NCBI RefSeq assembly: GCF_009733815.1
Contig: NZ_WNXY01000001.1
Span: forward strand, 620,001 to 684,000
Source: Pseudactinotalea suaedae
Lineage (GTDB): Bacteria; Actinomycetota; Actinomycetes; Actinomycetales; Beutenbergiaceae
Direction of reading: 5' to 3'
DNA length: 64,000 nucleotides
In this document: positions 19,723 through 53,609 of the stretch, one piece after another
Numbering within the stretch: position 1 is the stretch's first letter
How the letters are laid out: each line of letters starts with the position of its first letter
The notes under the pieces: model-generated
Database searches by the model: none
What the model was told of the DNA's origin: nothing
What the model saw: only the letters and a program-made list of their open reading frames with translations
Made by a program: the position numbers and the translations under genes

Positions 19723-19726
19723 CCGC

Positions 19727-19855
19727 TTTCAACACGATTCCGTCCACCTCCCGGTTTCAACACGATTCCGTCCACCTCCCGGTTTCAACACGATTCCGTC
19801 CACCTCCCGGTTTCAACACGATTCCGTCCACCTCCCGGTTTCAACACGATTCCGG
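19727..19855 (+). repeat. Left array of the 28-nt tandem repeat (4 full copies plus a partial)
   Basis: Copies begin at 19727, 19755, 19783, 19811 and (truncated) 19839. Each starts TTTCAACACGATTCCGTCC and ends ACCTCCCGG. Copies are essentially identical with no variable spacers. The array starts 4 nt after the priA stop (TGA CCGC). Confidence 0.95.
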
Positions 19856-19956: not shown

Positions 19957-20847
19957 ATGGAGATCCGTCGACTCATGTCTGTTGCTGCCGACACCCACGG
20001 CGTCATCACCGCCGAGATGGCCACTCGGGCGGGGGTGTCCCGGAGTCGGTTCGGTCGGCTGCGACGGGCTGGGCGGCTCCAGCATGTGTGCGGTGTTGGC
20101 TACGTTCTCGGCACGCGTGCGCCAACCGTCCGGCAGCGGGCCGTCGCGGCTCGGCTGACGTGGCCGGACTCGATCGTCTGCTTTCGCACCGCAGCAGTCC
20201 TCCATGGCATGCCGATCGTCGACGACGGCGCGACCCATGTCCTCGTTCCGGACGGGCGCCGCTCGATGAAGGGCCTGGTGGCGCACCACTGGAGCATCCG
20301 CCCGGTACAGGTCGACGACCACGGGACGTGGGCGGTCACGGACCGGCTCACCACGCTTGCCGATGTGCTGGGACGACTTCCGAACACGGAGGCCTGGGGA
20401 CGTTTTGCCTGGCTGGTGACGCGCGACCTCATCACCTCCACCGAGCTGCGGGCGCAGCTCGCCGAGCGGACGCATCTCTACGGTGTCGTGCGCTTGCGCG
20501 CGATGGCGGCGGCACTCGACCGCGGCGCCGTGAGCCTGGCCGAGGTCGAGCTGCACGACCTCCTGAGGAAACGCGGCTTCACCGGGTGGCTCGGAAACGC
20601 CAAGATCTTCCGACGCAACCGCATCGTCGCGAGAGCAGACATCCTCTTCGTGGAGTCTCGCGTGATCATCGAGTACGACGGTCGCCTGGCCCATCCCCAG
20701 ACGCGCTCGGCCGAGGACCGGCGTCGTGACCGGCTGCTGCGCAGCCTCGGCTACCACGTCATCCACGTGCGGTGGGAACGGCTGATGTTCACGCCCCAGG
20801 CGCTGCTCGCCGAGCTCGAGGCGGCGCTTCTCAGCCGAGCCGCGTGA
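19957..20847 (+). CDS. AbiEi-like winged-helix / DUF559 (PD-(D/E)XK-type) protein
   Basis: A 296-residue protein. Residues 1-50 look like the winged-helix found at the N-terminus of AbiEi-family antitoxins (GVITAEMATRAGVSRSRFGRLRRAGRL). Residues about 190-280 match DUF559/Vsr-like nuclease folds, with E196/E198, D228 in RADILF and E239 in IIEYDG as the likely metal-binding set. No partner toxin or methylase gene is adjacent. The ATG has only a weak upstream purine stretch. The gene lies between inverted repeat arrays and has slightly lower GC than its neighbours, so it may be an acquired element. Its activity is not known. Confidence 0.75.
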   Translation: MEIRRLMSVAADTHGVITAEMATRAGVSRSRFGRLRRAGRLQHVCGVGYVLGTRAPTVRQRAVAARLTWPDSIVCFRTAAVLHGMPIVDDGATHVLVPDGRRSMKGLVAHHWSIRPVQVDDHGTWAVTDRLTTLADVLGRLPNTEAWGRFAWLVTRDLITSTELRAQLAERTHLYGVVRLRAMAAALDRGAVSLAEVELHDLLRKRGFTGWLGNAKIFRRNRIVARADILFVESRVIIEYDGRLAHPQTRSAEDRRRDRLLRSLGYHVIHVRWERLMFTPQALLAELEAALLSRAA

Positions 20848-20864
20848 GCACCGCGCAGGGATCG

Positions 20865-20960
20865 CGTCGAAACCGGACCGTGGACAGAACCGTGTTGAAA
20901 CCGGGAGGTGGACGGAATCGTGTTGAAACCGGTGGGTGGACGGAATCGTGTTGAAACCGG
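20865..20960 (-). repeat. Right array of the 28-nt repeat, inverted relative to the left array
   Basis: Two good copies and one degenerate copy read on the minus strand with the same TTTCAACACG...GTCCACC core. Two copies end ATTCCGTCCACC and one ends GTTCTGTCCACG, with a further remnant beginning TTTCGACGCGATCC. The array begins directly at the stop codon of the GH42 gene (TGA CCGG). Confidence 0.9.
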
Positions 20961-22949
20961 TCAGGTGCGGAAGCCGGCGGAGGTGCGGAGCAGGGTCGTG
21001 GGGGAGGAGTCGGGGTCGAGCCGCTGGATCTCCACCGTGGTGGCGGCGTGGTCGAGCAGGAAGCGGATGTGGCCGCGCTCGCCGATCCGGTCGACCACCT
21101 CGAGATCGGGATCGTCCGGGTGCGGCCCCACGAGGTCGTGGCGCTCCAGCACCTGGCGCACGATCCGGTCCAGCCCAGCGGCTCCGAGATCGGTGCCGAT
21201 GTACCAGGCCTCGCCCAGGCCCACCCGGTGGCGCGTGACGGCGGCGCGGCCGGCGTAGAAGTCGTCGTCGTAGGTACCCACGACCTCGGCGCCCTCCGGC
21301 ACCAGTACCTCGAACACGAGCGAGGCGGGTGCGGTGAGCCGTTCGGTCTGGAGCTCGAGGGTGACCGAGTTGTCCTCACCCGGTCCCGCGGAGTCGGTCT
21401 CCTCGACGCGGACGCCGAACACGTCGCCGAACGGTCCCGGCGCATCCATGAGGAAGGCGCGCGCGCTCTCGTCGGCCCTGCCCGCCCAGAACGAGGTCAG
21501 CACCGTCCCGCCACGCTCGACGACGGCGCGGAGCCGGTCGGCGATGTCGCCCTTGACCACGTGCAGGGCGGGTGCGAGCACCACGTCGTAGTCGCTCAGG
21601 TCCGCGGTGCACGGGACCACGTCGACGGCGGCGTTCGCACGCCACAACGCGCCGTAGTAGCCCAGCACCACCGCCAGATAGCTGACATGCCGGTTGAAGC
21701 CATCGGTCATCTCGGTGGTCCACCAGGAGTCCCAGTCGAAGATCACCGCGGTCCTGGCCGGGGTCCGGGCGCCCAGCACCGCATCTCCGAGGTCGGTCAG
21801 CTGGGCACCGAGCTCGGCGATCTCGCGGAACGCCCTCGTGTCGGTGCGGCCCGCGTGGTCCAGCACCGCGCCGTGGTACTTCTCGCACGCCCCCTGCGAC
21901 TGCCGCATCTGGAAGTACAGCACCGCGTCGGCACCGTGCGCGACCGCCTGCCACGACCACAGCCCGAGCACGCCGGGCCGCTTCACCGAGTTGACGTCGC
22001 GACTCGCGGTGATCGTGGGGGTCTGCTCCATGACCCAGAACGGAGACCCACCCCTGAGGCCACGCATCAGGGCGTGGCTGAACGCCATCCGGACCTCCTG
22101 ACGCCGCCCCGGCGGGTAGTTGTCCCAGGTCGCGAGGTCCAGGTGCGGGGCCCACCGGTGGTAGTCGATGGGCCGGAACGGGCCCATGAAGTTCGTCGTG
22201 ACCGGCGTCGTGGCGTCGTGGCGGCGGATCTGCTCCTTCTCCGCCACGAAGTTGGCCAGCAGCGCGTCCGACATGAACCGCCGGTAGTCGAGCGTGATGC
22301 CCTGGAAGGCGGTGTGGTTGGGCCCGCGCCAGTGCTCGCTGAGCGCGTTGGGCGGCACGATCTGCTCCCAGGCGGTGAACAGGTGCGACCAGAACATGGT
22401 GTTCCACGCCTGGTTCAGGGCGTCGAGGGTGCCGTACCGCGTACGCAGCCAGACCCGGAACGCCGCCGCGCAGCTCTCGCAGTAGCAGGAGCCGTCCGGA
22501 CCGCCGTACTCGTTGGCCACGTGCCAGGCGATCAGCCCAGGCGTCCCCGCGTAACGGGCCGCGATCCGTTCGGCGATCGCGGCGGAGAACCGCTGGTACG
22601 CCGGCGCGCTCGGGCAGTGGTTGTGCCGCTGCCCGTAGCTGTGCCGTCTGCCCTCGAAGTCGGTCCGGTTGACCTCCGGGTACTCGTGGGAGAGCCAGGG
22701 CGGCATCGCGCCGGTCGGCGTGGCGAGCACGATCGAGCGGCCACCCGCGACGGCGCGCTCGACGATGGCGTCCAGCGTCGTGAAGTCGTAGCTGTCCTCG
22801 GCGGGCTGCACGTGCGCCCAGCCGAACACCCCGACGGTGAGGGTGTCGATCGCCGCGAGGTCGAAGGCCGCGTAGTCCTCCTCCCAGACCTCGCGGGGCC
22901 ACTGCTCGGGGTTGTAGTCGCCGCCGTAGCGGATCCTCGGCGTGGTCAC
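20961..22949 (-). CDS. GH42-family beta-galactosidase
   Basis: A 662-residue GH42 enzyme. The N-terminus RIRYGGDYNPEQWP, the acid/base Glu in WHVANEYGG and the nucleophile Glu in FWVMEQTP are all present. CYCESC provides zinc-site cysteines typical of the family. A C-terminal trimerisation-like domain and beta domain follow. No signal peptide is present, so it works in the cytoplasm on imported galactosides. The GTG at 22949 overlaps the stop of the DUF624 gene (GTGA). It is the last gene of the GH3-to-GH42 operon. Confidence 0.93.
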   Translation of the reverse strand: MTTPRIRYGGDYNPEQWPREVWEEDYAAFDLAAIDTLTVGVFGWAHVQPAEDSYDFTTLDAIVERAVAGGRSIVLATPTGAMPPWLSHEYPEVNRTDFEGRRHSYGQRHNHCPSAPAYQRFSAAIAERIAARYAGTPGLIAWHVANEYGGPDGSCYCESCAAAFRVWLRTRYGTLDALNQAWNTMFWSHLFTAWEQIVPPNALSEHWRGPNHTAFQGITLDYRRFMSDALLANFVAEKEQIRRHDATTPVTTNFMGPFRPIDYHRWAPHLDLATWDNYPPGRRQEVRMAFSHALMRGLRGGSPFWVMEQTPTITASRDVNSVKRPGVLGLWSWQAVAHGADAVLYFQMRQSQGACEKYHGAVLDHAGRTDTRAFREIAELGAQLTDLGDAVLGARTPARTAVIFDWDSWWTTEMTDGFNRHVSYLAVVLGYYGALWRANAAVDVVPCTADLSDYDVVLAPALHVVKGDIADRLRAVVERGGTVLTSFWAGRADESARAFLMDAPGPFGDVFGVRVEETDSAGPGEDNSVTLELQTERLTAPASLVFEVLVPEGAEVVGTYDDDFYAGRAAVTRHRVGLGEAWYIGTDLGAAGLDRIVRQVLERHDLVGPHPDDPDLEVVDRIGERGHIRFLLDHAATTVEIQRLDPDSSPTTLLRTSAGFRT

Positions 22950-35625: not shown

Positions 35626-37392
35626 TCAGCGGCGGCTGAGCGACCTCACCCGCAGGAGCACCAGGCCCGCCAGCATGGCGAGTCCGGCGAGCAGGAGACC
35701 GGTCAGGTCGCCCGCCCCTGTCTCCGGCAGCGGCTCGGTGTTACCGGAACCGTCCGCCGGGACGTTCAGCGCCGGCGGGTCCATGGGGACCGTCCGGCCA
35801 GGACCGCCCGGCGTACCGGGGCCACCGGGAGCGCCGGGGGTGCCGGCGTCACCAGGAGTACCTGGGTCGCCAGGAGTGCCCGGGTCGCCCGGGTCACCGG
35901 GGTCGCCCGGGTCGCCCGGGTCACCGGGGTCGCCCGGGTCGCCCGGGTCACCGGGGTCGCCCGGGTCGCCCGGGTCACCGGGGTCGCCCGGGTCACCGGG
36001 GTCACCGGGGTCGCCCGGGTCACCAGGAACGGCGGCCGTCGCACAGGCTGCCGCGGCGTCGCCCAGCAGTCCGACCGAGAGGCAGGAGACGTCGACCGGG
36101 ACGGTCACCGGGAGGTTGATCCCGATACCGCCGGTCGCCCCCGGATCCACTCCGGCACCCGGCGTCGCAGCCGGGCTGGCGCAGGCGGCGCCCGCGTCAC
36201 CGAGAACGCCCGCAGCGATGCACGAGACGTTCACCGGCACCGTCACGGGAGCGCTGACGCCCAGCCCGTCCGTGGTGGCGGCGGGCCCCGAGGGACCGGG
36301 GATACCGGCCGCGGGTGCGGCCGGCTCCGTGGACTCCACCGCAGCGTCCCCGAGGACGCCGGCGGCGATGTTGCCGATCGTGACCGGAACGGTCACGGGA
36401 GCCTCGACGTCGATGCCGTCGGTGCTGCCGGCACCAGCCGGCGCAGTCCCGGGGGACGGCGCAGCGGCCGGCTCCGTGGACTCCACCGACGCGTCTCCGA
36501 GGACCCCGGCGGCGATGTTGCCGATCGTGAGCGGAACGGTCACGGGAGCCTCGACGTCGATGCCGTCGGTGCTGCCCGTCTCAGCCGGCGCGGCCCCGGA
36601 GGACGGCGCAGCGGCCGGCTCCGTGGACTCCACCGACGCGTCTCCGAGGACCCCGGCGGCGATGTTGCCGATCGTGACCGGAACGGTCACGGGAGCCTCG
36701 ACGTCGATGCCGTCGGTGCTGCCGGCACCAGCCGGCGCAGTCCCGGGGGACGGCGCAGCGGCCGGCTCCGTGTCCTCCACCGCAGCGTCTCCGAGGACGC
36801 CGGCGGCGATGTTGCCGATCGTGACCGGAACGGTCACGGGAGCCTCGACGTCGATGCCGTCGGTGCTGCCCGCCTCAGCCGGTGCGGCCCCGGAGGACGG
36901 CGCAGCGGCCGGCTCCGTGGACTCCACCGACGCGTCCCCGAGGACACCCAGCGCGACGTCGGAGACGTCCACCGGGATGGTCACCGGAACCTCGACATCG
37001 ATGCCGTCGGCACTGCTGCCGGAACCGGCAGGAGTGTCGCCGATGGCGAGCTCAGCGTCCGCCTCCGAGGACATCACCCACGGGTCCCCGAGGGTCGTTG
37101 CGGTCTCGGCGGGTGCCGCGGGCTCGGCCACGTCCGCCGGTTCGGACTCCACCGTGGCGTCACCGAGCAGCCCGAGGGCCACGTCGTCGACCGCTGCGCT
37201 GACGTCCACCGGGACGTCGACCGAGATGTCGGGCAGCGCCTGGGTGACCTCGCCGAGAGGCAGGTCGACCGAGACGTCGAGTCCGAGGCCGAGGACGTCG
37301 TCCTGGGCGGCGTGGGCCGCACCGGCCCCGACGGCCAGGAGGCCGCCTGTGACGAGCGCCGTCTGCAGCGCGCGCCGAACGAATGGATGCAT
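35626..37392 (-). CDS. LPETG-anchored surface protein with 49-residue repeats and collagen-like stalk
   Basis: A 588-residue secreted protein. Start ATG 37392 has AGGAAAGAG upstream. The signal peptide ends near GAAHAAQD. Residues about 25-400 hold repeated beta units of the form VPVTVPVTIGNIAAGVLGDA linked by P/A/S-rich spacers, four of them nearly identical 49-residue copies. Two later units carry cysteines (VSCIAAGVLGDAGAAC, VSCLSVGLLGDAAAAC). Then comes a Gly-X-Pro tract (GDP, GTP, GAP) of over 25 triplets, the anchor LPETG, a membrane helix and a basic tail. Sortase would link it to the cell wall with the stalk near the wall. The VPV...VLGD units loosely recall chaplins, which is a guess. 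Confidence 0.85.
   Translation of the reverse strand: MHPFVRRALQTALVTGGLLAVGAGAAHAAQDDVLGLGLDVSVDLPLGEVTQALPDISVDVPVDVSAAVDDVALGLLGDATVESEPADVAEPAAPAETATTLGDPWVMSSEADAELAIGDTPAGSGSSADGIDVEVPVTIPVDVSDVALGVLGDASVESTEPAAAPSSGAAPAEAGSTDGIDVEAPVTVPVTIGNIAAGVLGDAAVEDTEPAAAPSPGTAPAGAGSTDGIDVEAPVTVPVTIGNIAAGVLGDASVESTEPAAAPSSGAAPAETGSTDGIDVEAPVTVPLTIGNIAAGVLGDASVESTEPAAAPSPGTAPAGAGSTDGIDVEAPVTVPVTIGNIAAGVLGDAAVESTEPAAPAAGIPGPSGPAATTDGLGVSAPVTVPVNVSCIAAGVLGDAGAACASPAATPGAGVDPGATGGIGINLPVTVPVDVSCLSVGLLGDAAAACATAAVPGDPGDPGDPGDPGDPGDPGDPGDPGDPGDPGDPGDPGDPGDPGDPGDPGTPGDPGTPGDAGTPGAPGGPGTPGGPGRTVPMDPPALNVPADGSGNTEPLPETGAGDLTGLLLAGLAMLAGLVLLRVRSLSRR
35850..36032 (-). repeat. Collagen-like 9-nt/GDP codon repeat tract
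   Basis: On the plus strand this is a run of (GGGTCGCCC / GGGTCACCG) units coding GDPGDPGDP on the minus strand. It is highly GC-rich and prone to length change. Confidence 0.9.
36371..36958 (-). repeat. Four tandem 147-nt coding repeats (49 codons each)
   Basis: The landmark TTGCCGATCGTGA recurs at 36371, 36518, 36665 and 36812, an exact spacing of 147 nt. Copies differ mainly in the spacer part (SSGAAPAE or SPGTAPAG). The regular period shows recent duplication in the gene. Confidence 0.9.
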
Positions 37393-37473
37393 GACTGATC
37401 TCTTTCCTGACTGAGTGGGTTGGCGCAGGTGCGCCGTGGGCACGTGCCGTGCGCGAGGCACGGCAGGGCCCGC

Positions 37474-38661
37474 TCAGCCAGGGGAGACAGGAACCTCGAA
37501 GAAGGTGGCCGTGCGCGACGCACGCGCCTCGAGATCGGCGGCGCGCCAGACGGCGGCAGGAACGACCGCGGCGGTGATGATCATGGCGGCCATCTCGGGT
37601 GCGCCGGCGCTACGCGCTGCCGCGGCGCCCGAGGCGCTGGCCGGCAACGAGCCGCTCGACGGCTCGTGAGCCGGTGTGGACGAGCCGTCCTGGGGTGCCT
37701 CACCCAGAGAGCCGGCGCCGGACGACGGCGATGCTGTCGTGCCGTTCGCTCCTGGAAGGGCTGGCGCGGCAGAGCTCGTCCCGGGCGCCTGATCGTCCGG
37801 CCGGTCGGGCGCGGGACCGCTCGAGGCAACGGGACCGGGTGGGACCGGTGGTGCCGTGACAGCAGGCACGTCCCGGTCAGCAGGTACGTGGGCAGCGGCA
37901 CCCGGATCGGCGACGCCGGGCAGCTCGGGCGAGAGCGGATCGGTGACCGGGTCGAGACCGTCGGTCACCGGGTCGAGAACGCCGGTCACGGGGTCGAGTA
38001 CGCCGGTCACGGGGTCGAGTACGCCGGTCACCGGGTCAAGAACGCCGATCACCGGGTCCAGCGGCGCGGTGACGGTCCCGACCAGGTCGGTGACCGGTGC
38101 CAGCACACCGGCGATCGGCGTGATCGCGGGGCTGGCTGCCTCGACCACGGAGGCCACCGGCGCCAGCACCTCCTCGACGACGGGAACCGCGACGGGCGCG
38201 ACGACGTCGTCGACCACCGGAGCCACGACGCCGTCCACCACGGGTGAGACCACGTCCTGCACGACGGGCGCGACCGGGGTGACGATCTCCTCCACGACGG
38301 GCGCCACCGGGGCGACGACCTCCTCCACGACCGGCGCCACCGGGGCGACGACCTCCTCCACGACCGGCGCCACGGGCGCCGCGACCTCGCTCACCACAGG
38401 GGCGACGACCTCGTCGACGACCGGCGCGACGACCTCCTCCACCACCGGCGTGACCACGCCGTCGGTCACGGGGGAGAGGACCTGGTCGAGCGTGCTGGTC
38501 AGCGGGTCCACGAGGCCGTCGAGCGGGCCGGCCTCGGCATCGGCGGCGGACGCGGTGGCGATCACCAGCCCGACACCCACGGCGCCACCGACGAGGAGCG
38601 CACGCCGCACGAGCGAGCGCGCCACAGCGCCGCTCCAGTGCGACCGATGCGCTTCCGCCAT
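37474..38661 (-). CDS. Secreted V/P-rich repeat protein
   Basis: A 395-residue protein. ATG 38661 has GGGGGACGGAG upstream; a longer open frame extends further but lacks signals. A signal-like helix (VRRALLVGGAVGVGLVIATASAADA) is followed by repeats of the type APVVEEVVAPVAP (about 55-170) and then GVLDPVT (about 205-240). A disordered P/S/G-rich region follows. The C-terminus has a hydrophobic stretch (MAAMIITAAVVPAAVW) and a basic end, but no LPxTG. It may be cell-envelope associated. The gene is 81 nt upstream of the LPETG protein gene in the same direction. Confidence 0.7.
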   Translation of the reverse strand: MAEAHRSHWSGAVARSLVRRALLVGGAVGVGLVIATASAADAEAGPLDGLVDPLTSTLDQVLSPVTDGVVTPVVEEVVAPVVDEVVAPVVSEVAAPVAPVVEEVVAPVAPVVEEVVAPVAPVVEEIVTPVAPVVQDVVSPVVDGVVAPVVDDVVAPVAVPVVEEVLAPVASVVEAASPAITPIAGVLAPVTDLVGTVTAPLDPVIGVLDPVTGVLDPVTGVLDPVTGVLDPVTDGLDPVTDPLSPELPGVADPGAAAHVPADRDVPAVTAPPVPPGPVASSGPAPDRPDDQAPGTSSAAPALPGANGTTASPSSGAGSLGEAPQDGSSTPAHEPSSGSLPASASGAAAARSAGAPEMAAMIITAAVVPAAVWRAADLEARASRTATFFEVPVSPG

Positions 38662-38807: not shown

Positions 38808-38821
38808 GCTCTCGAGCTTGA

Positions 38822-38961
38822 CGTGCTCCGGGGTCGGTGTAATTCCGAACCGGCGGTGACAGTCCGCGACCCGGCAGTGCTCGTCCACCCGGACGGGCAG
38901 TGGCGGTTGACCTGGTGAAACTCCAGGACCGACGGTGAAAGTCCGGATGGGAGGAAGCACG
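38822..38961 (+). ncRNA. FMN riboswitch (RFN element)
   Basis: This is a complete RFN element. The conserved blocks GGGTCGGTGTAATTCC, CCGGCGGTGACAGTCC, GACCTGGTGAAACTCCAG, GACCGACGGTGAAAGTCC and GGATGGGAGGAAGCAC appear in order. The closing stem pairs CGTGCT (38822-38827) with AGCACG (38956-38961). It senses FMN and is placed to control the riboflavin-uptake genes that follow. Confidence 0.95.
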
Positions 38962-39014
38962 CGGCGGGAGCGGCCCCCTGGGTCGCGCCGTCGTCAGGTG
39001 GGTGCTGGTGCACC

Positions 39015-47598: not shown

Positions 47599-48525
47599 AT
47601 GGCCAGACTGGGCGTCGTCGTCAACCCTGCCGCGAACGGCAACCGTGGAAGCCTCCCGGGAACCGGGGTGCTGCGTGAGCTGGAGGCCGCCGGCCACGAC
47701 GTCGTCGACCTGTCCGCCGAGGCCGCGGACGAGGCACAGCAGCGGGCCCACGCGGCGTGCGCCGCTGAGTCCGGACAGCTCGACGCGCTGATCGTGGTGG
47801 GCGGCGACGGCATGGTGCACCTCGGCGTCAACGCGGTCGCCGGCACCGACGTGCCGCTCGGCATCGTCGCGATCGGCAGCGGAAACGACTTCGCGCGCGC
47901 CGTGGGGCTGCCGGCGCACAACGGCCTCGACGCGCTACGTGCGCTCGAACGTGCCCTCGAGGCGGGGCCCCGGCGCGTGGACGTGCTCCGGTCCACGGGT
48001 GCGTTCGGCACGATCCGCACCGCGTGCGTGGTCTCCGTGGGCCTGGACGCCGCCGTCAACGCCCTCGCCAACAGCTACCGGTTCCCGCCCGGCGGCGGCA
48101 AGTACATCCGCGCCGCGCTGACCGAGCTGCGCGGCTTCAAGCCCTACGGCTACACGATCACGATCGACGGCGAGCGTCGCGAGATGCCCGGCACGCTGGT
48201 GGCCGTGGCGAACAGCCGCTACTTCGGCGGCGGCATGCAGATCGCGCCGAACGCGCAGATCGACGACGGTCTGGCCGACGTCGTGCTCGCCGGCGCGCTC
48301 ACGCCGTGGCAGGCGACACGGATCTTCCCGCGCCTGTACGAGGGTTCCCACGTGCATCACCCCGCGGTCGAGATCATCCGCGCCAAGGAGGTCGTCGTCG
48401 AGCCGCTGGCGCCGCACCCGCAGCCGCCCGAGGCCTACGGCGACGGTGAGCGCATCGGGGCTGTCCCGATGCGGATCGCCGTCGAGCCGGGTGCGCTGCA
48501 GCTCCTCGCGCCCCACGTACGCTGA
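47599..48525 (+). CDS. Diacylglycerol kinase-family lipid kinase
   Basis: A 308-residue DAGK catalytic-domain protein. NPAANGNRGS, the ATP-binding VVGGDGMVHLGVN and AIGSGNDFARAVGLP are typical. It phosphorylates diacylglycerol or a related lipid at the membrane. It lies 7 nt after tatC and before helY, as in mycobacteria-like gene orders. Confidence 0.9.
   Translation: MARLGVVVNPAANGNRGSLPGTGVLRELEAAGHDVVDLSAEAADEAQQRAHAACAAESGQLDALIVVGGDGMVHLGVNAVAGTDVPLGIVAIGSGNDFARAVGLPAHNGLDALRALERALEAGPRRVDVLRSTGAFGTIRTACVVSVGLDAAVNALANSYRFPPGGGKYIRAALTELRGFKPYGYTITIDGERREMPGTLVAVANSRYFGGGMQIAPNAQIDDGLADVVLAGALTPWQATRIFPRLYEGSHVHHPAVEIIRAKEVVVEPLAPHPQPPEAYGDGERIGAVPMRIAVEPGALQLLAPHVR
48518..48523 (+). 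promoter_or_regulatory. -10 box for leaderless helY (TACGCT)
   Basis: TACGCT lies 6 nt before the helY ATG at 48530. Confidence 0.55.
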
Positions 48526-48529
48526 CGAC

Positions 48530-51295
48530 ATGTCGTCACCTGCCGAGCGTTACGCGGCGGCGATGCGCCGACAGGCGCACGAACGCACCGAGCTCGCCCA
48601 GTTCGCGGGCACTCTCGAGTTCGAGCTCGACACCTTCCAGGTCGACGCCTGCCGCGCCGTCGAGGACGGTCGTGGGGTGCTGGTGGCCGCACCCACCGGA
48701 GCGGGCAAGACCGTGGTGGGGGAGTTCGCCGTCCACCTCGCGCTGACGCAGGGGCGCAAAGCCTTCTACACCACGCCGATCAAGGCGCTGAGCAACCAGA
48801 AGTACCAGGACCTCGTGCGACGCCACGGCGCCGCGTCCGTGGGGCTGCTGACAGGCGACACGGCGATCAACGGCGACGCCCCGGTGGTCGTGATGACCAC
48901 CGAGGTGCTCCGCAACATGCTCTACGGCGGCTCCCCGGCGCTGGACGGTCTCGGGTTCGTGGTGATGGACGAGGTGCACTACCTCGCCGACCGTTTCCGC
49001 GGCCCCGTGTGGGAGGAGGTGATCCTGCACCTCTCGCTCGACGTGCAGGTGATCTCGCTGTCGGCGACGGTCTCGAACGCCGAGGAGTTCGGCGACTGGC
49101 TCTCCGAGGTGCGCGGCGAGTGCGCCGTGGTGGTCTCCGAGCACCGGCCGGTGCCGTTGTGGCAGCACGTCATGGTGGGCGCCGACCTGCACGACCTCTA
49201 CTCCGGTGACGTCGACCCCACCCGTCCGGGTGTGACGCCGCCGATCTCGCACGACCTCGTCGAGGCCATCCGTGCGCTCGAGCGCTCCGGTGACCGGCGC
49301 CGCGGCGGCCGGGACACGCGCGGTCGTGGCCGTGGCCGCTACCAGCAGCGGCAGCCGATCGTGCGGCCACCCGCCCGTGGGGTCGTCGTCGACCGGCTCG
49401 ACCGCGCCGGGCTACTGCCGGCCATCGTGTTCATCTTCTCCCGGGCCGGCTGCGATGCCGCCGTGGCCCAGGTGGTGCACTCGGGCGTGCGTCTGACCAC
49501 GCCCGCGGAGCGGCACCAGATCGCCGACATCATCGCCGAGCGCACCGCGGCGCTGCCGCCCGAGGACCTCGACGTGCTCGGCTTCGACGCGTGGGAGCAC
49601 GCCCTGCTCTCGGGCGTGGCCGCGCACCACGCCGGGCTGCTGCCGGTCTTCAAGGAGACCGTGGAGGCGTTGTTCACGCAGGGCCTGGTCAAGGTCGTGT
49701 TCGCCACCGAGACGCTCGCGCTGGGTATCAACATGCCGGCGCGCTCGGTCGTGCTCGAGAAGCTCGTCAAGTGGGACGGCAGCGGCCACGCCGCGATCAC
49801 GGCGGGCGAGTACACCCAGCTGACCGGCCGCGCTGGGCGACGCGGCATCGACGTCGAGGGTCACGCCGTCGTGCTCTACGCCTCCGGGCTCGACCCGGTC
49901 GCGCTGGCCGGTCTCGCGTCCCGCCGCACCTACCCGTTGCGCTCCTCGTTCCGCCCGACCTACAACATGGCGGTCAACCTCATCGCCTCCGTGGGCTGGG
50001 AGCGGGCGCGGGAGGTGCTGGAGACCTCCTTCGCGCAGTTTCAGGCCGACCGTGCCGTCGTCGGGCTGGCGCGGCAGGCACGCAACCACAGCGAGGCCCT
50101 GGAGGGCTACGCGGACGCGATGCGGTGCCACCTGGGCGACTTCGGCGAGTACATGGAGCTGCGCCGCTCGATCTCCGACCTCGAGTCCGAGCTCTCGCGG
50201 GTCCGTTCGCGCGCGCAGCGTGAGGCGGTCGCCAGCACGATCGCCTCGCTCAGCCGGGGCGACGTCGTCCAGCTCCCCAGCGGGCGCAGGTCCGGTTTCG
50301 CGGTCGTCCTCGAGCCCCCGACGGCGGCCGGCTTGGACGGCGGGTCCGTCACGGTGCTCACGGGCGAGGGCCAGGTCCGGCGCCTCGTCGGCGCCGAGGT
50401 CCCGTACGGGACCCGGTCGGTGACGAGGGTCAAGATCCCCAAGGCGTTCAGCGGGCGCCGTCCGAAGGACCGGCGCGACCTGGTCTCCTCGATGCGGAAC
50501 GCGCTCGGCGCCCTCGCCGAGGCGCGGCCCGAGCGGGGGCGGCGTCCTCCCGCCGTGGGGGAGGACCGCCTCACCGAGCTCAAGGCCGCGCTGCGCGCCC
50601 ACCCGTGTCACGGCTGCGCCGACCGCGAGGAGCACGCGCGCTGGGCGCATCGCTACTTCAAGCTGCGCGACGAGCACGAGGCGCTGCTCCGGCGCATCGA
50701 CGGCCGGACGTCGTCGATCGCCCGCGAGTTCGACAAGGTCTGCGGCGTGCTCGCCGAGCTGGGCTACCTGGCCGGTTCCGGTCCCGAGACCACGGTGACC
50801 GAGCACGGGGAGTGGCTGCGACGCGTCTACTCCGAGCAGGACCTGCTGGTGGTCGAGGCGTTGCGCACCGGGCTCTGGGACGACCTGGACCCCGCCGGAC
50901 TCGCCGCGGTGGTGGCCGCCGTGCTGTACGAGTCGCGCTCTGACGAGCTGACGCCACGGCCACGCCTGAAGAGCCGCGTGGTGGCGCAGGCCGTGGACGC
51001 CACCGAGGTGCTGGCGCGCGATCTCGCTGTCGTCGAGGCCGAGGCCGGGCTCAACCCGCGATCTCCGCTGGATCTCGGACTGGTGGCCGCGGTGGACCGG
51101 TGGGCGCGCGGCGCCCACCTCGACGAGGTGATCGACTCCGACCTCGCCGCCGGCGACTTCGTGCGCTGGGCCAAGCAGGTCATCGACCTGCTGGACCAGC
51201 TGAGCGACGCGGCGCCGTCGAGCTCGCTCCAGGACACCGCTCATCGCGCGGTCCGTGCAGTCCGGCGCGGGATCGTCGCGCTCGGGACCGTCTGA
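48530..51295 (+). CDS. helY: DEAD/DEVH-box RNA helicase HelY (Ski2/Mtr4-like)
   Basis: A 921-residue superfamily 2 helicase. Walker A is APTGAGKT, motif Ia TTPIKALSNQK, motif II MDEVH, motif III SATV, and motif VI QLTGRAGRRGID. A long C-terminal region similar to the Mtr4/Ski2 arch and helical domains follows. It probably unwinds structured RNA for decay. ATG 48530 fits the family N-terminus. The TGA stop is directly followed by a tandem-repeat array. Confidence 0.95.
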   Translation: MSSPAERYAAAMRRQAHERTELAQFAGTLEFELDTFQVDACRAVEDGRGVLVAAPTGAGKTVVGEFAVHLALTQGRKAFYTTPIKALSNQKYQDLVRRHGAASVGLLTGDTAINGDAPVVVMTTEVLRNMLYGGSPALDGLGFVVMDEVHYLADRFRGPVWEEVILHLSLDVQVISLSATVSNAEEFGDWLSEVRGECAVVVSEHRPVPLWQHVMVGADLHDLYSGDVDPTRPGVTPPISHDLVEAIRALERSGDRRRGGRDTRGRGRGRYQQRQPIVRPPARGVVVDRLDRAGLLPAIVFIFSRAGCDAAVAQVVHSGVRLTTPAERHQIADIIAERTAALPPEDLDVLGFDAWEHALLSGVAAHHAGLLPVFKETVEALFTQGLVKVVFATETLALGINMPARSVVLEKLVKWDGSGHAAITAGEYTQLTGRAGRRGIDVEGHAVVLYASGLDPVALAGLASRRTYPLRSSFRPTYNMAVNLIASVGWERAREVLETSFAQFQADRAVVGLARQARNHSEALEGYADAMRCHLGDFGEYMELRRSISDLESELSRVRSRAQREAVASTIASLSRGDVVQLPSGRRSGFAVVLEPPTAAGLDGGSVTVLTGEGQVRRLVGAEVPYGTRSVTRVKIPKAFSGRRPKDRRDLVSSMRNALGALAEARPERGRRPPAVGEDRLTELKAALRAHPCHGCADREEHARWAHRYFKLRDEHEALLRRIDGRTSSIAREFDKVCGVLAELGYLAGSGPETTVTEHGEWLRRVYSEQDLLVVEALRTGLWDDLDPAGLAAVVAAVLYESRSDELTPRPRLKSRVVAQAVDATEVLARDLAVVEAEAGLNPRSPLDLGLVAAVDRWARGAHLDEVIDSDLAAGDFVRWAKQVIDLLDQLSDAAPSSSLQDTAHRAVRAVRRGIVALGTV

Positions 51296-51577
51296 GCCCC
51301 ACCTTCTCGCGCGCGGCGGTGGGACTTGAGCCCACCGGTTGCACGTGGCGGTGAGACAGGACCCACCGGTTGCACGTGGCGGTGAGACAGGGCCCACCGG
51401 TTGCACGCGGCGGTGGGACAGGGCCCACCAGTTGCACGCGGCGGTGAGACAGGGCCCACCAGTTGCACGCGGCGGTGAGATAGGGCCCACCAGTTGCACG
51501 CGGCGGTGAGATAGGGCCCACCGGTCGCACGCGGCGGTGAGATACGGCCCACCGGTTGCAGGCGGCGGTGAGATAGG
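51296..51577 (+). repeat. 31-nt tandem repeat array, family A
   Basis: After a degenerate first unit (51296-51329), eight full copies begin at 51330, 51361, 51392, 51423, 51454, 51485, 51516 and 51547. Each starts GCCCACCGGTTGCACG (or CCAGTTGCACG) and ends GCGGCGGTGAGA[C/T]AGG. There are few point changes between copies and no unique spacers. It starts right after the helY TGA. Confidence 0.95.
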
Positions 51578-51690
51578 GCCCATCGGGGGCACCCGCGTGG
51601 GCGCTACGTCACCGCCGCCACCCCGGCGTGGGCGCTAAGTTACCGCCGCTACCCGGGCGTGGGCGCTAAGTCACCGCCGCTGCCCACTGC
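51578..51690 (-). repeat. 31-nt tandem repeat array, family B (inverted relative to A)
   Basis: Three copies with landmark GTGGGCGCT at 51597, 51628 and 51659, again spaced 31 nt. The plus strand reads GTGGGCGCTAAGTCACCGCC. The complement of family A shares the TGGGC...TCACCGCCGC core, so B looks like A reversed, with a changed half. Confidence 0.85.
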
Positions 51691-52040
51691 GGCCGCTGCG
51701 TCGGCGACGCTCTCGGCCTCAGGCGTCGCCGCGCCGGCCGCAGACACACCGGCGACACGCCGGAGTCGTCGAGAAATGCCGCAACTGGTCTCAGAGCGCT
51801 GACCTGCGCGAACGCCCGTGACCTGCGATGACGCATGCTTGGCGGCACTGCCGAACGTCGGTATGTTCGCTCCCTGTACTGCTGCAGGGGGAGAACCTCC
51901 GCGCAGTCACCGACCAGGCCCGCGCGTTCACTAGAAAACGGGGCCCCGAGACCGGGGCAGCGGACCGAAGGACGTGCGGGCCGGTCGGTGCCAGCGGGGG
52001 AGCGGCCGGTCGGTGCCGGCGAGGAACGTATCCTGGGCCG
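51691..52040. other. Non-coding stretch upstream of lnt
   Basis: About 350 nt without a convincing gene. It includes CGAACGTCGGTATGTTCG near 51853, an imperfect dyad whose spacing does not fit LexA. I see nothing else except the lnt -10 box at its end. Confidence 0.6.
52029..52034 (+). promoter_or_regulatory. -10 box for leaderless lnt (TATCCT)
   Basis: TATCCT lies 6 nt before the lnt GTG start. Confidence 0.5.
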
Positions 52041-53609
52041 GTGCCTCAGCTCCAGCCGCGACGACTCACGACCGCGGCGGTGGCGATCGTGGGCGGTCTG
52101 CTCACCGACACGGCCTTTCCGCAGCGCAGCTGGTGGCCGATGGCCATCATCGGCGTCGCGCTGCTCGTGCTGGCCCTGCGCCGGGACTCCGCCCGGTGGG
52201 CCGCCGCCGTTGGCTTCCTCTGGGGCATCTCGTTCTTCCTGCCCCACATCTGGTGGGCCAACGAAGCGGTGGGCGTGATCCCATGGATCGCCCTGTCCGT
52301 CGCCGAGGCCGGCATCGTCGCCGCCACCTGCGCCGCGTGGGTGTGGGTCCGACGAGGGACGTTGCTGCAGCGGCTCGTGCTCGGGCAGGCCGCGGTGTTC
52401 GGCGTCGTCTGGGCGGTGGGGGAGCAGCTTCGTCAGGTCTGGCCGTTCGGGGGCTTCCCCTGGGGCAGGCTCGCGTTCTCGCAGACCGACTCACCGTTGC
52501 TCAGGCTGGCCTCCCTGGGTGGCGCACCGCTGGTGTCCGCCGTCGTGGCCGCGCTCGGTCTGCTGCTCGCGAGCGTCGCGGTGACGCTGCGACAGGCGGA
52601 CACCGTGCGCCTCATCGGTGCTCCCGCCGCGGTGGCCGCGGTGCTCGGGCTCAGCCTCCTGGTGCCGCTGGGCACGCACGGCTCCGCCGGGCAGCTGCGC
52701 GTCGGCGCGGTGCAGGGCAACGTCGCCGAGCCTGGGCTGGGTGCGTTCGCCAACGCCTACGAGGTGCTCAACAACCACGTGAGCGGTACCGAGCAGCTCG
52801 CCGAGGACGTCGGCGCCGGCGGTGTCGATCTGGTCGTCTGGCCCGAGAACTCCTCCGACTACAACCCGCGCGCCTACGAGGACGCGCGGGTGCTGGTCGA
52901 GCAGGCGGTCGCGGCTGTCGGGGTGCCGCTGCTGTTCGGCACGGACCGGTACGTCGAGGCCGGCGACGAGCCCGGCGCCGTCGACGAGCGGTACAACGAC
53001 ATGGTGCTGTGGCTGCCCGGGGAGGGTCCGGTCGAGGCCTACTCCAAGCAGATCCCTGCCGCGTTCGCCGAGTACATCCCGATGCGCGAGGTCGCTCGGA
53101 TCTTCTCCTCCGCCGTCGACCTTGTCGGGACCGACATGGCCCGCGGGACCGAGATCGCGGTCGTGGACGTGCCGGTCGCCACGCTCGAGCGCGACGTCCC
53201 GGTGGGCACGATCATCTGCTTCGAGGTGGCCTACGACGCGCTGATCCGGGAGTCGGTGGTCGGTGGCGCCGAGGTGCTGTTCGTCCCGACGAACAACGCC
53301 TCCTTCGGCTACTCGGCCGAGTCGGAGCAGCAGCTGGCGATGTCGCGGTTCCGCGCGGTCGAGCACGGCCGTGCCACCATCCAGATCTCGACCGTGGGTG
53401 TGAGCGGGGTGATCGCGCCCAACGGTGTGGTGCTGGAGACCACCGAGCTGTTCACGGCCGACCAGCTCGTGGCGACGGTGCCGCTGCGGACCGAGCTCAC
53501 GATCAGCGACCGGCTGGGTGACGCCCCGGTCGTAGCATTCACCCTGTTCACGGTGCTGGCGCTGCTCACCGGTATCGCCACCGCACCACGGCGGAAGCGT
53601 CGCCGATGA
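52041..53609 (+). CDS. lnt: Apolipoprotein N-acyltransferase
   Basis: A 522-residue Lnt. The N-terminal half holds about six helices. The C-terminal nitrilase-like domain has the triad E269 (VWPENSSDY), K336 (YSKQIPAAFAEYIP) and C393 (GTIICFEVAYD). It adds a third acyl chain to lipoproteins at the outer face of the membrane. It overlaps the polyprenol-phosphate-mannose synthase gene by ATGA. In M. tuberculosis the two are fused; here they are separate. Confidence 0.94.
   Translation: MPQLQPRRLTTAAVAIVGGLLTDTAFPQRSWWPMAIIGVALLVLALRRDSARWAAAVGFLWGISFFLPHIWWANEAVGVIPWIALSVAEAGIVAATCAAWVWVRRGTLLQRLVLGQAAVFGVVWAVGEQLRQVWPFGGFPWGRLAFSQTDSPLLRLASLGGAPLVSAVVAALGLLLASVAVTLRQADTVRLIGAPAAVAAVLGLSLLVPLGTHGSAGQLRVGAVQGNVAEPGLGAFANAYEVLNNHVSGTEQLAEDVGAGGVDLVVWPENSSDYNPRAYEDARVLVEQAVAAVGVPLLFGTDRYVEAGDEPGAVDERYNDMVLWLPGEGPVEAYSKQIPAAFAEYIPMREVARIFSSAVDLVGTDMARGTEIAVVDVPVATLERDVPVGTIICFEVAYDALIRESVVGGAEVLFVPTNNASFGYSAESEQQLAMSRFRAVEHGRATIQISTVGVSGVIAPNGVVLETTELFTADQLVATVPLRTELTISDRLGDAPVVAFTLFTVLALLTGIATAPRRKRRR

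Follow-up and report, generated by a model that had tools for sequence, protein, structure and literature searches.

A multi-unit wall protein of Pseudactinotalea suaedae, probably a divergent relative of the long chaplins, encoded with a secreted partner

What kind of surface protein is encoded at positions 35626-37392 of the 64,000-nucleotide (nt) stretch of Pseudactinotalea suaedae DNA analyzed here (hereafter the window)? A sequence-only reading of this stretch had described a surface protein with a collagen-like stalk, an LPETG anchor, and chaplin-like beta units. Our analysis indicates that the protein, here called P0001, is probably a divergent multi-unit relative of the long chaplins of Streptomyces, a wall-anchored coat protein produced from a two-gene cassette in which the other gene, P0002, encodes a secreted partner.

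The interval singled out by the sequence-only reading matches one complete open reading frame (ORF) of 588 amino acids (aa), which runs from ATG to stop exactly at 37392-35626 on the minus strand, as do all features of P0001 and P0002 given below; its description as a multi-unit chaplin-like cell-wall protein draws on the ORF, on its relatives, and on comparison with an orthologue. From the N-terminus, P0001 comprises a signal peptide (MHPFVRRALQTALVTGGLLAVGAGAAHA, residues 1-28, 37309..37392, with relatives carrying the same type and the cleavage site inferred), eight V-P-V units, a 76-aa proline-rich stalk (35797..36024), the LPETG sortase motif (35716..35730), and a hydrophobic stretch with the basic tail RVRSLSRR (35629..35706, read from the sequence). 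LPETG is thus present where it had been placed, and the combination of signal peptide and sorting signal agrees with the predicted sortase-type surface protein. The N-terminal units would be outermost, as had been proposed, because the anchor is C-terminal. The coding strand was assigned by comparison with the orthologue L013, which is 66% identical at the aa level across 549 aligned codons: differences at codon positions 1, 2, and 3 number 138, 96, and 266, respectively, and since most fall at the third position, the minus strand is the coding one. Overlapping plus strand ORFs of 733 and 661 aa are taken as shadows of the GC-rich sequence.

Near-identical 49-residue units had been placed at the very start of the protein. 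Such units do exist, as units 3-6 (49 aa or 147 nt each, Cys-free, delimited as tandem repeats at 36295..36882), but they are preceded by the diverged units 1 (residues 47-95, 37108..37254) and 2 (residues 122-170, 36883..37029). Nor are they the exact 147-nt repeats that had been claimed, as units 3-6 share just 84-95% of their DNA sequence among themselves. The array nevertheless exceeds chance, with 4.7 copies, 90% matches, and a score of 1104 in Tandem Repeats Finder, and similar units are encoded by 11 of the 24 bacterial-family genomes compared, the own genome among them. Two versions with a Cys pair had also been described, and these were confirmed as the last two of the eight units, unit 7 (36145..36291) and unit 8 (36028..36144), both with the spacing C-x12-C. 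Across 72 units of ten related proteins (L012-L021, hereafter the window family), both cysteines are present in 23, neither in 49, and one alone in none. Cys-pair units are mostly those closest to the stalk. Nine of the ten proteins have such pairs, and in these all cysteines from the first unit onward fall inside units. This strict pairing fits an intradomain disulphide, and an intramolecular chaplin disulphide has been suggested, as reported in a review (PMC5618241). Intermolecular chaplin disulphides have likewise been proposed to speed nucleation, with cysteines dispensable for fibrils in vitro and ChpE being a chaplin that has none (PMC3079736).

Are these units chaplins? Comparison of profiles with hhalign linked the window family (25 units) to 13 chaplins with an E-value of 2.6e-6 and a probability of 88.7. 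A set of intermediates, made up of 12 proteins from genomes positive for the Pfam chaplin model ChpA-C (PF03777) plus the Agromyces relative L003, matched the chaplins at E 1.1e-10 and the window family at E 5.6e-13; the proteins of five of the 17 ChpA-C-positive genomes (L060, L066, L068, L069, and L071) were missed by the unit pattern and left out. Hidden Markov models (HMMs) built from the three groups were then scored against 4465 sequences, including 325 shuffled decoys. The intermediate HMM recovered all ten window-family proteins (P0001 at 1.9e-35) and 11 of 12 labelled chaplin ORFs, the window-family HMM recovered five of those 12 at E<1e-3 (best 6e-8), and the chaplin HMM recovered 13 of 13 intermediates at E<1e-3. 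P0001 itself falls below the ChpA-C gathering score, which is passed by its relatives L003 (32.0 versus 21), L125, and L127. When 396 genomes of the phylum were searched with the intermediate profile, 17 gave a match: four from the order (own genome included), 11 from one genus with genomes of 6-10 Mb, presumably Streptomyces, and two others. Of the seven loci fetched from this search, six carry evident chaplins, with chaplin HMM E-values no worse than 6.5e-30 against a small database. The seventh, L106 (genome G268, a 238-aa open frame), carries VCGNGVGVLGDASASC and SCNSVGLLGDASSNC in one protein and so combines the VCGN and SCNS registers of the cysteines, accounting for the first cysteine being displaced by one residue; it is a natural bridge between the window-family and chaplin subfamilies. 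We conclude that the window-family units are, by profile, homologous to the chaplin domain, in keeping with the chaplin-like beta units originally proposed, and that the family represents a divergent chaplin branch, not to be classed under PF03777.

With P0001 as query, matches were obtained in 25 of 39 near genomes, many of them over the stalk alone. The 25-unit profile matched 12 of the 24 bacterial-family genomes, the own genome among them, and in one of the 12, G003, the match is a fragment. In the remaining 11, unit matches were confined to one locus per genome, except in G017, where one stretch occurs twice, near both ends of one contig. No unit matches were seen in any of the eight genomes of genus g7. 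By pattern, each of the ten window-family proteins has 6-9 units, whereas the profile counts as many as 10 (in G010); as one genome per species was compared, this range is one between species. An LPxTG or LAxTG signal closes eight of these proteins; in L019 the motif reads LAESG, and in L015 the signal drops out of the open frame inside the stalk. In the genome that also holds locus L087, the chaplin-like ORF loses its frame in the stalk, either by a real frameshift in repeats or by an assembly error. L003, found with P0001, shares 33% identity over residues 2-350. ChpA-C matches above the Pfam cut-off occurred in 17 of 248 genomes of the order; G216 and G153, ChpA-C-positive and unused in the profile, gave no match to the intermediate profile. 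Matches of P0001 to PHROGs lie in the stalk region, two of three extending into the C-terminal part, and matches on viral contigs (four loci) fall on the stalk in three cases and on residues 353-563 in the fourth (L096).

Directly upstream of P0001, on the same strand, lies P0002 (37474..38772), a 432-aa protein with a signal peptide, V-P repeats of the VAPVVEEVVAPV type, and the tail EVPVSPG. The pairing was examined at 32 loci (the window, ten loci of the family, L085-L094, and 21 others, L113-L132 and L003), which represent six families, one of them outside the class, together with Agromyces L003. A V/P/A-rich ORF ending in -P-(D/G/A)-stop stands directly upstream on the same strand at all 32. 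At the ten family loci this ORF ends in (I/V)PVSP(G/A), or LVSPA in L090; that ending was found in none of the 21 other loci scanned, where the ORF is also V/P/A-rich and ends in DVSPD, PGSSPD, GSRPD, TTPD, IPNSPA, and similar tails. The terminal P-(D/G/A) is preceded by S, R, or T in 30 of 32 partners, and the resulting [SRT]P[DGA] ending is rare, being found in 51 of 1823 closed ORFs of at least 100 aa at these loci, partners included. Partners were picked without using the tail, except that L087, L088, and L122 were assigned afterwards by it, the automatic choice at the first two having fallen on a different frame; L122, whose partner tail was found later, stands outside the gap, fold, and signal counts (n=31). 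A signal-like N-terminus was present in the open frame of 28 of 31 partners; the exceptions are L087 and L088, where it is encoded in a separate frame, and L126, where no such N-terminus was found. For L087 and L088, signal peptide and tail in different frames point to a split gene or an assembly indel. When P0002 and six other partners were scored against the Pfam and NCBIfam models, none of the seven gave a match above cut-off. AlphaFold without an alignment rendered the P0002 repeat region as one long helix, with a mean predicted local distance difference test (pLDDT) of 71.5 and a predicted template modelling score (pTM) of 0.24, which we treat as weak.

The distribution of P0002 follows that of the chaplin-like gene. 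Within the bacterial family, P0002 matches occurred in 12 of 24 genomes, namely in 11 of 11 with the chaplin-like gene and in one of 13 without it (G003 counted among the latter; Fisher p 1e-5). In that single case, G022, the partner lies directly upstream of an LAATG-anchored protein with a similar signal peptide (L155), and in G105, from another family, it precedes an LATTG-anchored protein (L156). Chaplin units were not detected in either L155 (5117-8068, plus strand, TDG/SDG-repeat) or L156 (2750-4420, minus strand, GDDG/VDDL-type). In addition, partner paralogues ending in RPGFAPD precede, at L152 and L154, a secreted protein that is rich in Ser/Thr, resembles the others in its signal peptide, and has no evident sorting motif. 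A search of the 248 genomes with a tail profile gave 21 at E<0.001, of which 19 also had a chaplin-like profile match, the remainder being G105 and G144; this search is partly circular, as 16 of the 20 profile rows come from genomes within the 248. No partner-type ORF was seen within ~1.5 kb of 26 chaplin loci (25 of Streptomyces type plus L106, some overlapping), and in 13 chaplin-bearing genomes, for each of which just 150 first-look candidates were scored, the tail profile matched nothing at E<=0.001.

The stretch between the partner stop codon and the P0001 ATG (37390..37476, predicted fold) folds in prediction into a three-way junction with a closing stem TGAG/CTCA. The stop-to-start gap measures 81 nt in the window; it was measured at 25 of 31 loci, of which 19 have 79-87 nt, with an overall range of 55-141. 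A three-way junction whose closing stem begins no more than ten bases in, counted from the stop codon, was predicted at 24 of 31 loci. The number expected from 200 dinucleotide shuffles per locus is 4.0 of 31, and the corresponding stretch downstream of other likely genes at these loci gave such a fold in 30 of 220 cases. The ChpA-C-positive loci of other Micrococcales share this partner and, for the most part, the RNA fold. A similar fold was predicted for L155 and L156, and at L152-L154 the enclosing stem begins some bases past the stop codon. Rfam gave no match in the intercistronic stretch. These RNAs were assessed by alignment-free tests in place of a covariance model. The closing-stem arms vary by group, yet on average they pair better with their own counterparts (mean -9.1 kcal/mol) than across groups (-6.2). 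In 5000 arm-swap permutations the observed total was never reached; this test covered the 26 of 31 sequences with a length of 80-95 nt, in groups by genus or family that we assigned. Because relatedness contributes and the own arm is strictly the best in just 7 of 26, we regard this as strong but not formal covariation.

SecM-type leaders are regulatory arrest peptides that lie upstream of structured intercistronic RNA, and the leader feature of that layout, an exported protein with a conserved extreme C-terminus, recurs here (tail in 32 of 32 partners, signal in 28 of 31). A SecM-like switch, in which RNA structure hides the downstream ribosome site until a ribosome stalls, was tested for: masking the first 15 nt, on the side of the stop codon, took the mean accessibility of that site from 0.52 to 0.48 and raised it in 12 of 22 cases, and without a consistent change a simple switch of this type is not supported. 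The junction may instead have a role in mRNA processing, stability, or termination.

The capacity for anchoring was then considered. The Pfam model Gram_pos_anchor and the NCBIfam model LPXTG_anchor both scored P0001 just below their cut-offs (18.4 versus 20 and 15.4 versus 15.9, respectively), and P0001 carries a C-terminal sorting signal as the long chaplins do. Three sortase genes are present in the genome: one of class E, above its cut-off (254.7 versus 160), one class E-like and below it (106.0), and one class F-like and below its own (111.9 versus 166). Streptomyces chaplins are anchored through class E sortases, and we infer that the class E sortase of this genome uses LPETG.

Several points weigh against a long-chaplin relative made from a two-gene cassette. 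The chaplin HMM gave no match to P0001 at E<=1 and recovered three of ten window-family proteins at E<1e-3; full-sequence E-values benefit from the number of repeats, and counted by single units the strongest match of the window-family HMM to a chaplin has an E of 1.1e-4; and the link through the intermediates is partly circular, as these were chosen by the Pfam chaplin cut-off. ChpA-C was not found in the own genome, although the control genomes of the same search also gave no match. The chaplin domain has three GN motifs, 12-13 residues apart (PMC13251363), that are absent from the window units, and the Cys pair, present in two of eight, is spaced by 12 residues instead of ~17. At the RNA level, the closing stem in the window is weak (4 bp, not in the centroid, z-score -1.9). 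The V-P-V cores are of low complexity, which leaves some residual room for convergence. Alternatively, P0001 could be an ordinary proline-rich spacer or adhesin serving plain adhesion or display, its V-P-V filler having converged on a chaplin-like composition in a GC-rich genome. The low-complexity stalks and linkers across the window family, the variable unit number, and the score below the ChpA-C cut-off would all suit such a protein, as would structure prediction. Disordered units, together with a lack of surface location, had been named as what would count against assembling beta units, and AlphaFold indeed gave units 7-8 no fold (pLDDT 42.3, with 16 alignment rows from the window and L003 only), which agrees with the disorder half of that statement; it does not decide the matter, since some chaplins are themselves partly random coil before agitation (PMC3079736). 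Solved structures gave no match to window-family units and none to chaplins either, and on a hydrophobicity-type aggregation scale, to which we give no weight, window units and chaplins overlap. Convergence is harder to reconcile with position-specific matching. An initial hhalign run on uncleaned unit rows gave a probability of just 3.1 (E 0.0047), but its score of 15.7 was above all 100 column permutations (best 13.0); for this comparison 4 of 91 units were removed as out of register. For a further comparison, duplicates and L014_463 were removed, which left sets of 71 and 68 units. Moreover, no shuffled decoy scored at E<=1, the window-family HMM picked up, at E<1e-3, no V-P-rich partner ORF among those that the test set contained at that stage, the cysteines are strictly paired, and the phylum-wide search arrives at chaplins. 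We therefore consider a converged spacer or adhesin unlikely.

Two further alternatives concern the stalk and the partner. P0001 might be a collagen-like adhesin of the streptococcal Scl type, its Gly-x-Pro repeat forming a triple helix and its units a trimerising head. The repeat that had been reported as more than 25 Gly-X-Pro triplets is real, although the count is 25 G-x-y triplets, 24 of them G-x-P and 17 GDP, and Pfam Collagen (PF01391) scores it at 50.6 bits; NCBIfam matches to SclB/SclA are weak and far under cut-off (19.2 versus 325 and 18.3 versus 400). However, the translation of the opposite strand matches Collagen equally well (52.9 bits), and among the ten window-family proteins (window included) stalks of DPG type occur in four, Gly-free DPT/DPV stalks in five, and no stalk in one. 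L084, another surface-type protein of the same genome, also has a DPT/DPV stalk. Glycine at every third position thus holds in the window and not across the family, so the collagen triple helix was rejected as the functional feature and the collagen-like stalk of the sequence-only reading is not supported: a true collagen stalk is unlikely, and a period-3, Pro/Asp-rich extended linker would be the simpler reading. An Scl-type adhesin is accordingly very improbable. The constant pairing at 32 of 32 loci, and the partner's occurrence before anchored proteins without detected chaplin units (L155 and L156), could alternatively suggest an S-layer or sheath-type structural protein unrelated to chaplins, its assembly templated by the V-P-repeat partner. 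Profile homology to chaplins speaks against this, and the Pfam matches include no S-layer domain; we give such a protein hardly any probability.

For a divergent long-chaplin relative, the following mechanism can be proposed. P0001 would be exported and then joined to peptidoglycan by the class E sortase, with the stalk, in an extended form of polyproline type and not as a collagen triple helix, holding the units outside the wall. The outer, Cys-free units may pair as beta strands, with one another or with units of neighbouring molecules, and the paired units might form a hydrophobic chaplin-type coat that alters wettability and adhesion, while the inner Cys-pair units would be locked by disulphides near the wall. 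P0002 would be a dedicated secreted partner made from the same transcript, and the RNA junction could adjust the relative yield of P0002 and P0001. Translation termination is slow at proline. A more elaborate form of regulated display, in which the -S-P-(D/G/A)-stop tail slows termination and the RNA junction senses the delay and determines how much of the downstream anchored protein is made, is a doubtful proposition at present. If true, partner export would be coupled to coat building in a surface-display system new to biology, with a downstream product that is chaplin-like at most loci and another anchored protein at L155 and L156.

The multi-unit proteins would extend chaplin-type coats, known from spore-forming filamentous bacteria, to several families of Micrococcales. 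Surface attachment has been suggested to predate the role of chaplins in aerial growth (PMC4255298), and the Micrococcales proteins make that attachment-first suggestion testable. Among the open-licence literature matches listed, no account of multi-unit chaplin-like Micrococcales proteins appears beyond a remark on Arthrobacter chlorophenolicus in PMC4255298. What would be unexpected to specialists is the recurrent cassette with its tail and structured RNA: this two-gene unit, with a conserved C-terminal tail and an RNA junction, is named in none of the libraries used.

Elsewhere in the window, an FMN (flavin mononucleotide) riboswitch (RF00050, 92.4 bits) is present at 38820-38963 on the plus strand, just upstream of an ORF that by eye resembles an ATP-binding cassette (ABC) permease (38935+) and of one that by eye resembles a solute-binding lipoprotein (39807+). 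This riboswitch-ABC locus suggests a riboflavin importer of the RibXY kind. Tandem arrays of 28 nt at 19723-19854 and 20861-20967, mutually inverted by eye, flank a 296-aa ORF (19957-20847, plus strand). Arrays of 31 nt at 51312-51586 (8.8 copies) and 51595-51685 (2.9 copies) lie between two plus-strand ORFs that by eye resemble a helicase (48446-51295) and an apolipoprotein N-acyltransferase (51828-53609).

How does P0001 compare with known systems? Its features had been thought to combine as in no described family, a claim that does not hold, as the Streptomyces long chaplins join chaplin units to a Pro/Gly stalk and LAxTG. Long chaplins consist of two chaplin domains and a sorting signal (PMC5618241). 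With these ChpA-C (PF03777) proteins P0001 shares the type of signal peptide, the units, a Pro/Gly-rich stalk, and the sorting signal. Since a PGN/PGD stalk precedes LAxTG in the long chaplins L033 and L034 (Streptomyces), L104, and L108, the overall layout of P0001 is that of a long chaplin. On the other hand, the long chaplins compared here have two units and P0001 eight, mostly without cysteines, and the window units lack both the GN motifs and the NPAFGNTC end. The ChpA-C-positive proteins of Micrococcales (Agromyces L003 and others) resemble P0001 in being multi-unit, in having a similar signal peptide, and often in a Pro-rich stalk, and most of those read to the end have an LAxTG-type signal; their units differ in typically containing GGNAISVIGDS and in being able to pass the Pfam cut-off, with Cys pairs in one of 13 (L067). 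The Scl1/Scl2 adhesins share the G-x-P repeat and LPXTG with P0001 and differ in their NCBIfam scores and in that the stalk glycine is not conserved in the window family. Finally, P0001 resembles, by description, CwpA and CwpB of Actinoplanes missouriensis, hydrophobic wall proteins from outside Streptomyces that depend on a class E sortase; these have been proposed to render the cell surface hydrophobic and are reported to have no chaplin domain (PMC13251363).

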